Below are positions 8,566 to 63,568 of a DNA stretch of 64,000 bases, piece after piece (the stretch's first letter is position 1; each line of letters starts with the position of its first letter). The translations under genes and the position numbers were made by a program. The stretch covers positions 1,121,677 through 1,185,676 of the forward strand of contig NZ_RKLQ01000002.1 of the NCBI RefSeq assembly GCF_019599405.1. The letters are read 5' to 3'. This stretch comes from Haloarcula salinisoli. Lineage in GTDB: Archaea > Halobacteriota > Halobacteria > Halobacteriales > Haloarculaceae. The notes beneath the pieces are model-generated. The model worked only from the letters and a program-made list of their open reading frames with translations. It had not been told where the DNA came from and searched no databases.

Positions 8566-8786
8566 CAGCCAGAAAGCCCCGGCCAGCTAAACTCGGGGGC
8601 CTCGCTGTGCGCTTCCTTCGTGGTTCGAGAGAGCAAGGCTCTCTTGTCATCTGCTCACGGGCGGCGGAGCCGCCCGTTCGCAGGTTCGTGGGACTCGCAG
8701 AGTCCCACGCTCATCACGAAAGACGTTCCGCGTCTTTCGAACGACAGCGAGTCGCGGGACCGTAGCCACTCGGGGCTTTCTGGCTG
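8566..8786. repeat. Hairpin-cassette repeat element B
   Basis: A 221-bp noncoding element bounded by perfect 15-bp inverted termini: CAGCCAGAAAGCCCC at 8566-8580 and GGGGCTTTCTGGCTG at 8772-8786. It holds perfect hairpins at 8627-8634/8638-8645 (loop AAG), 8657-8665/8669-8677 (GGA), 8687-8696/8700-8709 (GCA) and 8717-8725/8731-8739 (5-nt loop). A degenerate extra terminus, AGAGCCAGAAGC, follows at about 8812. It sits between two minus-strand genes. No open reading frame is credible. Confidence 0.85.
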
Positions 8787-32832: not shown

Positions 32833-32884
32833 AAAACAGTCGCGAGAGCGCGTTTGGAAGTGTTTAGCAGCGGTTTGTTCTGAG

Positions 32885-33094
32885 AGCCAGAAAGCCCCGA
32901 CGGGCTACACTCGGGGGGCTCGCTGCGCTCCTCAGCCTTCGGCCTGCGGTGCTTGCTTCGCCCGCCTTCGTGTAGCAAGCGAGGTCGGCTCCGCCGACCT
33001 CGTTAAACGTGGCGGCGTAGCCGCCACGCAGCCGCCCCTTTCTGGCTGTTCGCTAGGTGGTTTAGTGCAGTTGCTAGCGGAGCTTTTTGGCTGT
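32885..33094. repeat. Hairpin-cassette repeat element C
   Basis: Begins with AGCCAGAAAGCCCC (32885-32898) and ends with two terminal motifs, CCCCTTTCTGGCTGTTCGC (about 33034-33052) and the degenerate GCGGAGCTTTTTGGCTGT (33077-33094), whose cores are 45 bp apart exactly as in element A. Inside are perfect hairpins CGAGGTCGGC-TCC-GCCGACCTCG (32980-33002) and CGTGGCGGC-GTA-GCCGCCACG (33008-33028). It fills the space between the converging HTH and HMG-CoA synthase genes. Confidence 0.85.
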
Positions 33095-40201: not shown

Positions 40202-40241
40202 GGTTCTGGCTGTAATTTCGAGCCGGGGCTTTCTGGCTCTC
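40202..40241 (+). repeat. Solo terminus of the hairpin-cassette family
   Basis: GGGGCTTTCTGGCTCTC at 40225-40241 matches the right terminus of the repeat family, preceded by a degenerate TTCTGGCTGT at 40204-40213. No hairpin cassettes or opposite terminus accompany it, so it looks like a decayed or minimal copy, between pdxS and the DUF1405 gene. Confidence 0.55.
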
Positions 40242-54687: not shown

Positions 54688-56027
54688 ATCAGACTGGTCG
54701 CCAGCGCCGCGCCGACGCCGGTCAGGGCCGCCGCCAGCGTCGCCAGCGTGTTGACGCCCTGGTTGCCGACGACGGTGCCCTCGACGGTGGCGCCGAGCAC
54801 GCTGTCGACGGTCATCCCGACGAACCCACAGCCGACGATGAGCGCGGCGCCGGTCGGGCCGACGACCTCCAGGGTGGCCGCGGCGATGCCGGCGATAATG
54901 GCGGCGCCGACGAGCCCGGCGACGATGCCCTGCCAGGTAACGCCGCCGTCGGTGCCCGGTTCGACGCGTTCGAAGGTCGTGATGAGCCGCGGGTTGTCGT
55001 ACAGGCCGCCGAACTCACTGGAGAAGGTGTCGGTCATGGCGGCGGCGACGGCGCCCGCGAAGGCATAGAGGAACAGCGTCGGTTCGACCGCGAGGTGGGT
55101 CGGGCTGGCGGCCCACAGCAACACCGCGACCAGGGCGACGATGGAGTTTGCGAGCACGTTCCCACTCCCGCGGGCGCCCTCGTTCTCCTCGGCGATGCCC
55201 CGGTCCTGTTTGGCCTCGTACTGGTACTTCGTCGAGAGACCACCGAGCCCGAAGAAGGTGATGAGCATGGCGAACCAGCCGTAGCCCCCGAGCACGATAG
55301 TGAGCAGGGAGAGCAAGACGCCGGTCAACATCCCCGGGAGCGAGGCCGTATCGAGCGCGTAGGCGATGTAGCCAAGCACCGCCGAGACGCCCAGTGCGAC
55401 GAACACGCGCCCGGTCCCCGCGCCGGGGTCGAGTTCGAACAGGAGCCAGAGCAACAGGCCGACAGACAGCACCACGAGCGGGTCGTCGCGCTCGAAGAGG
55501 ACGGAGCGAAACAGCGCGGCGACCAGGGCACCGGTGCCGGCCAGGAACAGGGCAGTCGGGAGTGCGACGCTCCCGGCCCCCGTCCGGGCCGCGATGATGG
55601 CCGCGGCGGTCCCACAGGCGAAGCCGGTGACGACGAAGCCGGCCGTCGCCACCACCTCGTCGCTGTGGAGCCGATGGGCCACGCGCTGGCCGAAGTTGCC
55701 GTAGGCGACGATGACGACGGTGGCGACGAACACCCAGACCGGCAGGCCGAACTGTATCGCGAGGAAGGCCAGACTGGCCGCCGCCAGCGCGAACGCGGCG
55801 AGCCCGTAGAGCCGGCCGTCCTCGTAATCGCCCGGCCGGGCGAAGATATCGAACATCGGCGTGTCGGGGCCGATGGCGAACATGGCGAAAAAGGCGACCA
55901 CGAGGAAGGGCGCGGTCGCGGCGACAGTCGCGACGGCGGGCGATGTGAGCCCGGCAGCGACCGGCACGGCAAAGGCCAGTGTGCCGACCGCGGCGAACGC
56001 GCCCGCCCGTCGGACTGTGGTTGTCAC
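54684..56027 (-). CDS. DUF92 (VTE6-like) membrane protein
   Basis: The 447-residue protein has about eleven transmembrane helices. The DUF92 core is the C-terminal half: GMLTGVLLSLLTIVLGGYGWFAMLITFFGLGGLSTKY, AAAMTDTFSSEFGGLYDNPRLITTFERVEPGTDGGVTWQGI and CGFVGMTVDSVLGATVEG. The plant DUF92 enzyme VTE6 phosphorylates phytyl phosphate; a role in polyprenol phosphate metabolism fits the neighbouring cis-prenyltransferase genes (inference). GTG at 56027 has an AGTAAGT box about 28 nt upstream; the upstream in-frame ATG would read from repeat element E. First gene of an operon with the GNAT. Confidence 0.88.
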   Translation of the reverse strand: MTTTVRRAGAFAAVGTLAFAVPVAAGLTSPAVATVAATAPFLVVAFFAMFAIGPDTPMFDIFARPGDYEDGRLYGLAAFALAAASLAFLAIQFGLPVWVFVATVVIVAYGNFGQRVAHRLHSDEVVATAGFVVTGFACGTAAAIIAARTGAGSVALPTALFLAGTGALVAALFRSVLFERDDPLVVLSVGLLLWLLFELDPGAGTGRVFVALGVSAVLGYIAYALDTASLPGMLTGVLLSLLTIVLGGYGWFAMLITFFGLGGLSTKYQYEAKQDRGIAEENEGARGSGNVLANSIVALVAVLLWAASPTHLAVEPTLFLYAFAGAVAAAMTDTFSSEFGGLYDNPRLITTFERVEPGTDGGVTWQGIVAGLVGAAIIAGIAAATLEVVGPTGAALIVGCGFVGMTVDSVLGATVEGTVVGNQGVNTLATLAAALTGVGAALATSLI

Positions 56028-56153
56028 GTGCCGCCGGTATCCCCGAGAGGCACTTACTCTTTCCGAACTTCCCGGGCTAGGAACTGTTTGTGATTCTGAA
56101 CTGAACGCTGTCAAGAGGCGGAACATCCCTGCGACCGCGTACAGCATCATGGA

Positions 56154-56475
56154 CAGCCAGAAAGCCCCGCTTGGCTCCGGTCGAGGGCTTCGCTGCGCGC
56201 GCTCGCCCCGCTCGCGTGCTTGCGTCAGCCGTCTTCCCGGAGCCAACCGCCCCTTTCAGTCCCACCCGCACTGTTTGACCAACCGGCTACGGGTGGGACT
56301 GAAAGGGGCGACCTGTTCGACGGCGTTCACGAGAGCGAAGCTCTCGTGCAGCCCATCAGAAATCTCCGATTTCTGAGGACGGCGGGCGAAGTAAGCACTG
56401 GACCGAGCGAACGGAGTGAGCGAGGGAAGAGCACAGCGAGCCCCCCGAGTCGAACAGGTCGGGGCTTTCTGGCTG
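56154..56475. repeat. Hairpin-cassette repeat element E
   Basis: A 322-bp element with perfect 15-bp inverted ends: CAGCCAGAAAGCCCC (56154-56168) and GGGGCTTTCTGGCTG (56461-56475). Inside is a 21-bp perfect inverted pair, CGCCCCTTTCAGTCCCACCC at 56248-56267 and its reverse at 56290-56310, around a 21-nt loop, and triloop hairpins CACGAGAGC-GAA-GCTCTCGTG (56328-56348) and CAGAAATC-TCC-GATTTCTG (56357-56375). Sits between the divergent DUF92 and UppS-like genes. Noncoding. Confidence 0.88.
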
Positions 56476-56568
56476 TTCGCACTGCTGTCACTATTCTTTC
56501 CGGTGAAGGTGTCCGGGACTGCTTCGAGGACCGTGAGCTTTAGGCGAGCGGTCGCTGTAGCGGTGAGC

Positions 56569-57177
56569 GTGGGTCTGTACGAACGGTATCTCGCGCTCCG
56601 ACTCCGGCGGAGCGACGCCGACCTCCCGGAGACGGTCGCCGTAGTCATCACCGAGCGGGACCTGCTGACCGACGGAGCCTACACCACCCTGGAGCGCTTT
56701 TTCGAGTGGGCAGTCCGGCACGGCGCCGAGACGGTCGTGGTCTACGTCAGCGTGCTGGACGAGGAGGTGGTGCCGACGCTCCGGCGGGAGCTGTCGGACC
56801 TCCGTGCGCCGACCGACGTCGCCGTCCGCGGGCCCGGGGACCAGCGGGCCGCCGCCGCGCCCATCCAGATTTCCATCGGACTCGGGGGTCAGTCGGAGTT
56901 CGCGACGGCGGTCCGCAAGCTCGCCGAGGCCGTCGACGCCGGCGAGCTCACGCCCGAAGACATCGACGAGGCGGCCGTCGAGGAGCATCTCGTCTTCCCG
57001 ACGGCGCCAGACCTGGTCATCAAGACCGGCGCAGAGCGGCTCTCGGATTTCATGATATGGCAGTCGGTGTACTCGGAGCTGTATTTCACCGACGTGAACT
57101 GGCAGAACTTCCGCCAGCGGGATTACCTGCGGGCGCTGCGGGATTATCAGGAACGCCAGCGGAGATTCGGCCGATAG
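56569..57177 (+). CDS. Divergent cis-prenyltransferase (UppS-like) paralogue
   Basis: The 202-residue protein has the C-terminal UppS region intact (PDLVIKTGAERLSDFMIWQSVYSELYFTDVNWQNF) but the N-terminal catalytic motif is changed: where UppS has HVAVIMDGNRRYA, this reads VAVVITERDLLTDG, losing the Asp and Asn needed for catalysis. It may act as a non-catalytic subunit with UppS at 57704, like the NgBR subunit of eukaryotic cis-prenyltransferases (inference). GTG at 56569 has CTTTAG 28 nt upstream. The stop codon lies inside the palindrome TTCGGCC-GATA-GGCCGAA (57166-57183). Confidence 0.8.
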   Translation: MGLYERYLALRLRRSDADLPETVAVVITERDLLTDGAYTTLERFFEWAVRHGAETVVVYVSVLDEEVVPTLRRELSDLRAPTDVAVRGPGDQRAAAAPIQISIGLGGQSEFATAVRKLAEAVDAGELTPEDIDEAAVEEHLVFPTAPDLVIKTGAERLSDFMIWQSVYSELYFTDVNWQNFRQRDYLRALRDYQERQRRFGR

Positions 57178-63112: not shown

Positions 63113-63488
63113 CAGCCAGAAAGCCCCGCCGGTCTGGACTCGGGGGACTCGCTGTCGTCCGAGAGAGCGAAGCTCTCTCGTGATGAACGAAAGGCGTTGT
63201 GCGCCTTTCGAACCACGCGCGCTCACTTCGCTCGCGTGCTAGCGTCGTCCGCCTTCGTCCAGACCGCCGCCCCTTTCAGTCCCGCCCATGCTGGCTGACC
63301 AACCGGCTACGGGTGGACTGAAAGGGGCGAACCGTTCGACTCGGCGGGCGAAGTAAGCACCGAGGGAGCAATGCGACCGAGGCGCGCAGCGAGCTCGTTC
63401 GAAAATCTTCGATTTTCGTGATGACGAAAGACGGCTTTGCCGTCTTTCGAACCACCCCCGAGTCGAACGGTTCGGGGCTTTCTGGCTG
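63113..63488. repeat. Hairpin-cassette repeat element F
   Basis: A 376-bp element with ends CAGCCAGAAAGCCCC (63113-63127) and GGGGCTTTCTGGCTG (63474-63488). It has CGAGAGAGC-GAA-GCTCTCTCG (63160-63180), TGATGA, CGAAAGGCG-TTGTG-CGCCTTTCG (63188-63210), AACCAC; the inverted pair CGCCCCTTTCAGTCC / GGACTGAAAGGGGCG around 63268-63329; and CGAAAATC-TTC-GATTTTCG (63400-63418), TGATGA, CGAAAGACGGC-TTT-GCCGTCTTTCG (63425-63449), AACCAC. The richest copy of the family. No gene. The rest of the 63028-63568 gap has nothing else recognisable. Confidence 0.9.
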
Positions 63489-63568
63489 TTAGCACTATGG
63501 TTCTCTCAGTCGAACACAACAATTCCTAGCGGCCAAACCACTTTGAGGCTGGCAGGCCACCTGCCGGT

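Follow-up and report, generated by a model that had tools for sequence, protein, structure and literature searches.

Intergenic hairpin elements with 15-bp inverted borders in Haloarcula salinisoli are probably old copies of a composite IS6-family MITE

The window analysed here is a stretch of 64,000 bp of the Haloarcula salinisoli genome (contig NZ_RKLQ01000002.1, positions 1,121,677 to 1,185,676) in which the 15-mer CAGCCAGAAAGCCCC recurs at six sites. All of these sites lie between called genes, as had been noted in a reading made from the letters alone. That sequence-only reading had also described perfect 15-bp inverted ends at 8566-8786, 56154-56475 and 63113-63488, and these are exact pairs. 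Its other positions needed adjustment. An element placed at 1-213 does share the end (an exact 15-mer at 198-212), but it has two right ends and starts outside the window, where another end lies at C2:1121440; one placed at 32885-33094 shares the ends in part, its first end being at 32884; and a solo end given as 40225-40241 is present at 40225-40239. The features are as follows.

1-212, no strand: element cut by the window start, its two right ends (153-167; 198-212) spaced by 45 bp
8566-8786, no strand: element with exact 15-bp inverted borders (8566-8580 and 8772-8786)
32884-33093, no strand: element with degenerate borders, the first end at 32884 with one mismatch
40225-40239, plus strand: solo border with one mismatch, between divergent genes
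56154-56475, no strand: element with exact 15-bp inverted borders (56154-56168 and 56461-56475)
56169-56248, plus strand: hairpin module A, 12-nt arms GCTTGGCTCCGG and CCGGAGCCAACC, 70.5 bits
56249-56309, no strand: core hairpin GCCCCTTTCAGTCCCACCC...GGGTGGGACTGAAAGGGGC, read from the sequence, with the anchor that follows most modules
56310-56460, minus strand: hairpin module B, inverted, arms GACCTGTTCGAC and GTCGAACAGGTC, 50.5 bits
63113-63488, no strand: element with exact 15-bp inverted borders (63113-63127 and 63474-63488)
63128-63268, plus strand: hairpin module A with extra nested hairpins, 47.8 bits
63269-63328, no strand: core hairpin with the usual anchor sequence
63329-63473, minus strand: hairpin module B, inverted, with extra nested hairpins, 37.1 bits
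63489-63529, plus strand: 33 bp that are probably a right-hand IS6-type end in decay, with ATTCCTAG after them at 63522-63529

The element at 63113-63488 lies between hemA, whose product is 95% identical to HemA of H. rara, and a small downstream gene; its fold is cloverleaf-like, with a z-score of -12.9. A tRNA-derived structure was considered and rejected, as ARAGORN detects no tRNA in the window. The element at 8566-8786 has an interior without the usual core hairpin and an RNA fold z-score of -8.9, and the corresponding gap, with the element absent, measures 80 bp in the relative G198 and 105 bp in G208. At 32884-33093 the right border is doubled (33034-33048 and 33079-33093) and there is a single module, at 32901-32981.

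Genome-wide, the count that had been suggested as a check gave 91 exact copies of the 15-mer and none of a reversed control; relaxing one or two letters gave 243 matches against approximately 57 for the control. With up to three mismatches the window contains 18 matches, where 1.35 are expected and shuffled sequences reach a maximum of 5; its ends with one or two mismatches lie at 153, 32884, 33079 and 40225. The copies are intergenic and mostly arranged as outward pairs, and the 15-mer is present in 23 of 194 sampled Halobacteria. On contig C1 (1.73 Mb) of the same genome, exact sites fall almost entirely within the first 790 kb, with two in the remaining 0.94 Mb. Long spurious reading frames cross some elements (window positions 55861-56651; positions 1009-1542 of locus L082), within which the 15-mer reads as GAFWL, SQKAP or QPESP, and these may yield false hypothetical proteins.

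Elements of this genome were studied in stretches around the sites. Between the two 15-mers the usual plan is a module A, a core hairpin and an inverted module B. A simple module spans 71-95 bp, opening with 12 letters whose complement closes it, and is followed by the anchor GCCCCTTTCA in 131 of 149 cases. The anchor allowed 143 modules to be located independently of their arms; 107 of these are perfectly complementary (12/12), with 100 distinct arm sequences. When seven located stretches with fewer than seven pairs are left out, 1595 of 1632 arm cells are Watson-Crick pairs, 16 are A-C and 5 are G-T. The covariation score is 0.716 over 77 aligned modules, one row of which (L254:1385-1463) is mis-oriented, compared with 0.179 when shuffled and at most 0.117 when partners are slid. 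Element length varies with the number of internal hairpins, as had been proposed. Nested hairpins such as GAGAGAGCGAAGCTCTCTC and ACGAAAGACGGCTTTGCCGTCTTTCG lie inside modules at 63128-63473 of the window and in several other elements of the genome, and recur between elements, as if small palindromes had been inserted as an additional layer.

The module extends well beyond Haloarcula. A covariance model made from the 77-module alignment finds it in 91 of 116 sampled Halobacteria, representing 38 of 45 genera, often with at least 38 modules per genome, and many genomes hold about 40 or more copies. One half of the 15-mer, GAAAGCCC(C), recurs at the module foot in other families of the class, where a constant outer foot (G)AAAGCCC is followed by a genus-specific extension (GGGGCTTTCACGGTGTTGCTG in G074 and GGGGCTTTGAAAGAGTTCACCGCCCCAGC in G009, looser in G003). 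In L278, from another family (G027), the flank to the right of the module repeats approximately every 57 bp as GGGGCTTTGG...CATTTATAAG, so that a TATA-like stretch recurs in every repeat.

Where the mobile unit ends became clear from two gaps that were read in relatives, the one downstream of hemA and the divergent one at 56028. In G210 both gaps hold near-identical young copies that start with GGTAGTGTT and end with AACACCACC, 33 bp outside the 15-mers, flanked by TTTCC[C/T]AG and [T/C]GCTTCGA. The terminal repeat of the unit is of IS6 type (GGYRGTGTTTAGTTWAG, with the tip GGYRGTGTTTAG), and the outer 17-mer of the G210 copies matches haloarchaeal IS6 elements. Intact IS6 elements of 694-697 bp, common in Haloarcula, have the same ends and 8-bp duplications. 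The transposase of one, L156, scores 168 bits on the NCBIfam model transpos_IS6 (cut-off 125), which was used because Pfam at 1e-3 gave no match for this protein.

A systematic scan of elements with the core or the 15-mer identified six perfect 8-bp duplications, all beside IS6-type ends (L240 GTCTTGTT, L088 GAAAGAAT, L154 CACCGGAT, L163 GAACAGAG, L165 CCGAGCCA and L166 CGAACGTT). In another genus, L286 has a single module within a MITE with a different IS6-like tip and the duplication GGGCGGGC. L240 is chromosomal in H. rara and forms an entire unit of 371 bp, for which G210 (L334) provides the orthologous empty site with one target copy, GTGCTGTT. The stretch holding this fresh copy (L240 1484-1870) appears to be protein-coding in the empty relative, and insertion may therefore not be confined to intergenic DNA. 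The comparison of empty and filled sites thus bore out the earlier suggestion of a non-autonomous mobile element, with IS6-family terminal repeats and 8-bp target duplications on whole copies in relatives, and at the same time removed the 15-mers from the role of termini: clean insertion borders lie 33 bp further out, the 15-mer belongs to the inner portion of each end, and no insertion was found with its border at the 15-mer. A search for a full-length coding element with the same 15-mers found none; two longer 15-mer pairs, in G089 (704 bp) and G050 (519 bp), contain no transposase-like frame by eye.

Fresh copies in relatives have IS6 ends and duplications, and one has an empty counterpart, so that old IS6-type MITEs are the most likely identity of the window elements. 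No window copy has intact IS6 ends or a target duplication, and no exact IS6 tip was found in the genome under study (G000). Remnants of the terminal repeat (at least 10 of 14 letters) were detected at 11 of 123 ends of this genome against 2.7 expected, 10 of the 11 at one fixed offset, exactly 16 bp outside the 15-mer. At the place corresponding to 63489-63529, TTTCCTAG adjoins intact IS6 ends in G198 and G210. The helper is likely to be an IS6 transposase, with no more than roughly the outer 17 bp in common. It is not seen where most copies are, because G000 has only degenerate IS6 fragments, with no intact transposase found, and no IS6 was found in G205; nor was any found in G089, although these assemblies may miss plasmids. 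A plasmid search with the 48-bp end returned chance matches only.

At orthologous sites the sequence between the borders has turned over. We compared 59 border pairs in 36 gaps common to this genome and H. rara, where most flanking genes are 85-96% identical. Agreement is 96% for the 15-mers, at sites selected for having one, and 60% for the exteriors compared with 50.7% at unrelated sites, 14 of the 59 exceeding the 99% null; the interiors, however, agree at 57.1%, against 57.6% for a non-orthologous null (0.571 vs 0.576). None of the 14 sites with a shared exterior has an orthologous interior, and the orthologous site is never the best match for any interior. The element at 56154-56475 illustrates this, its exterior being common to H. 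rara and its interior unrelated. Two relatives have fused borders with the interior gone; at the site of 32884-33093 this is the state of H. rara. H. rara lacks 15-mer sites at three of five window gaps. Its hemA gap (L098) holds an unrelated stretch of 0.9 kb with the element absent. The proposal of a recombination border therefore gains some support, with unrelated sequence between 15-mers and some flanks clearly shared, while that of a cassette array holds as an analogy only, no recombinase having been found. Interior exchange is deduced from this loss of orthology; interiors that evolve extremely fast, or a spot hit by insertion more than once, could give the same picture.

Among 31 modules of this genome chosen by model score with the 15-mer ignored, 19 have an exact border, 11 one mismatch and one two mismatches, and nine inner letters of the 15-mer, GAAAGCCCC, are invariant in all 31; the 15-mer is thus conserved beyond its neighbours, sharply so over exactly its own length plus one T. 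Tandem arrays of the 15-mer, with periods of 45, 50 or 54 bp and up to seven copies, occur on the outer side of borders (L236 ~1835-2074 and L215 ~1498-1692 in H. rara; L082 1024-1362 in G176; L085; L086), and in the G176 array the repeat units read are identical.

We consider it probable that a composite hairpin element once spread as an IS6-family MITE and that the elements are its old copies. The mobile unit would measure ~107-416 bp and consist of a terminal repeat, a 15-mer ~33 bp in (the Haloarcula form of this placement), a module, the core, an inverted module, a second 15-mer and a second terminal repeat, and an IS6 transposase acting in trans would insert it with an 8-bp target duplication. 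The window copies would have the same origin, their outer ends having decayed. Interiors later turned over and are unrelated at orthologous sites; we infer that they were exchanged or lost when dispersed copies recombined or when replication slipped at hairpins. The 15-mer is the conserved foot of the outer hairpin module. The arms change together and stay Watson-Crick complementary, most likely because recognition requires a single DNA strand in its folded form or because one arm is copied from the other.

That the 15-mer is better conserved than its neighbours, even where the outer ends have decayed, calls for more than a decayed MITE, and an IS6 MITE alone does not account for other genera having conserved borders of their own with no visible IS6 ends. 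We put forward, tentatively, a broader reading in which the module is a class-wide, unnamed element of Halobacteria whose arms co-evolve through a host or mobile enzyme that would recognise a folded single DNA strand or rewrite one arm from the other. It would travel in IS6 MITEs, and perhaps in other carriers, and swap interiors with the feet serving as borders.

Among the alternatives, a structured non-coding RNA or processing signal kept by selection and spread by transposition is unlikely, even though strong covariation and folding, conserved internal-loop sequences and class-wide spread are what such an RNA would display. Read along the outer-to-core strand, arm mismatches comprise 25 A-C and 5 G-T (15 and 5 in Haloarcula alone after removal of repeated events, p = 0.04). 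An A-C skew is a G-T skew on the other strand, which would mean that G-U is tolerated on the strand opposite the outer-to-core one and hints weakly that one strand may be the folded one, the evidence being weak because the samples share ancestry. However, wobble-type pairs on either strand occupy 21 of 1632 cells, low for a fast-changing RNA helix; dyad symmetry leaves one module antisense in any transcript; and the elements have no positional bias relative to genes. A known RNA family was rejected, as Rfam gave no match above its gathering scores, and relaxed E-values returned spurious hairpin matches only.

We regard it as quite improbable that the mobile unit really ends at the 15-mers, in the manner of the small mobile repeats (SMRs) of Haloquadratum walsbyi, which are described as having terminal repeats, inserting into palindromes and leaving the target unduplicated (PMC3119063). 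The sharp limits of conservation, the replacement of interiors while exteriors stay and the genus-specific borders elsewhere agree with such an origin, but in the one proven pair of filled and empty sites an 8-bp duplication marks borders that lie 33 bp beyond the 15-mers, and every perfect duplication found sits at IS6-type tips.

There is a comparably low probability that the 15-mer is a conserved binding site for a chromosomal or transcriptional protein, as part of a domain border, insulator or promoter. Solo and tandem copies share its conservation beyond the surroundings, sites are unevenly distributed along contig C1, and borders cluster roughly 76-95 bp ahead of start codons and 35-50 bp behind stop codons. 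Against this, compact gaps alone could give such spacing, three of five window gaps in H. rara lack sites, and there is no preference for convergent, divergent or tandem gaps: tandem, divergent and convergent arrangements number 36, 17 and 10 among gaps with elements and 40, 26 and 13 among gaps of at least 60 bp that have none, so that no gene-context bias is visible. A main role as terminator or promoter was rejected on the same grounds, and we see nothing that points to regulation of the neighbouring genes. Movement as a REPIN/BIME unit by a Y1 (RAYT-like) transposase acting on a folded strand is very unlikely: two inverted modules around a linker, a conserved short foot, a variable stem and an extragenic location fit, but no Y1 transposase was found in G009, G077 or G089, which hold from 21 to at least 38 modules, no module lies near any Y1 locus searched, and the foot is GAAAGCCC rather than GTAG or CGTC.

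The elements are of wider relevance. Arms that covary strongly and almost without wobble pairs allow a test of whether, in living archaea, folded DNA strands are recognised or arms are copied from each other; sister species that have lost orthology between the 15-mers give a system in which recombination among dispersed repeats can be measured; and the elements may explain short "orphan" reading frames that cross them. For the hairpin family itself, spread through most sampled haloarchaeal genera, we found no description in the open-licence literature, where neither the 15-mer nor the core sequence appears in any relevant paper; the family may already be named elsewhere.

Several known systems invite comparison. 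Integron attC sites have variable stems kept complementary around conserved short motifs and are recognised as a folded single strand; here this is a resemblance only, no integrase or gene cassette having been found. Neisserial Correia/NIME elements are intergenic mosaics with short conserved inverted borders and a variable interior; they differ in sequence and in helper, and to our knowledge covarying arms are not known for them. REPINs and BIMEs likewise have an inverted hairpin pair as their unit, as found here, and are extragenic and numerous, with a constant foot and variable stem; the modules described here differ in their length of 71-95 bp, their foot and the lack of Y1 in three module-rich genomes, which weakens a Y1 transposase as helper. 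The SMRs and PATEs of Haloquadratum walsbyi, compared by description only, are also short haloarchaeal repeats without a gene of their own, with inverted ends and nesting in palindromes, but SMRs have no target duplication, which fresh copies here do have, and no known helper, and PATEs lack inverted ends and derive from IS605-type elements (PMC3119063). The closest match is with IS6-family MITEs, of which a review of the family lists only two, of 227 and 336 bp (PMC7986276). In relatives we found the matching terminal repeats, 8-bp duplication and filled/empty site of such a MITE, although not a helper transposase in the same genome; the units are non-coding, and their tips (GG, TGTT motif) are shared with IS6 elements of the genus. 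They differ in a hairpin-module dyad interior, of which the IS6 and Y1 loci searched held no example, and in old copies that keep the 15-mer rather than the tips, and their carrier would be a new member of the IS6 MITEs.
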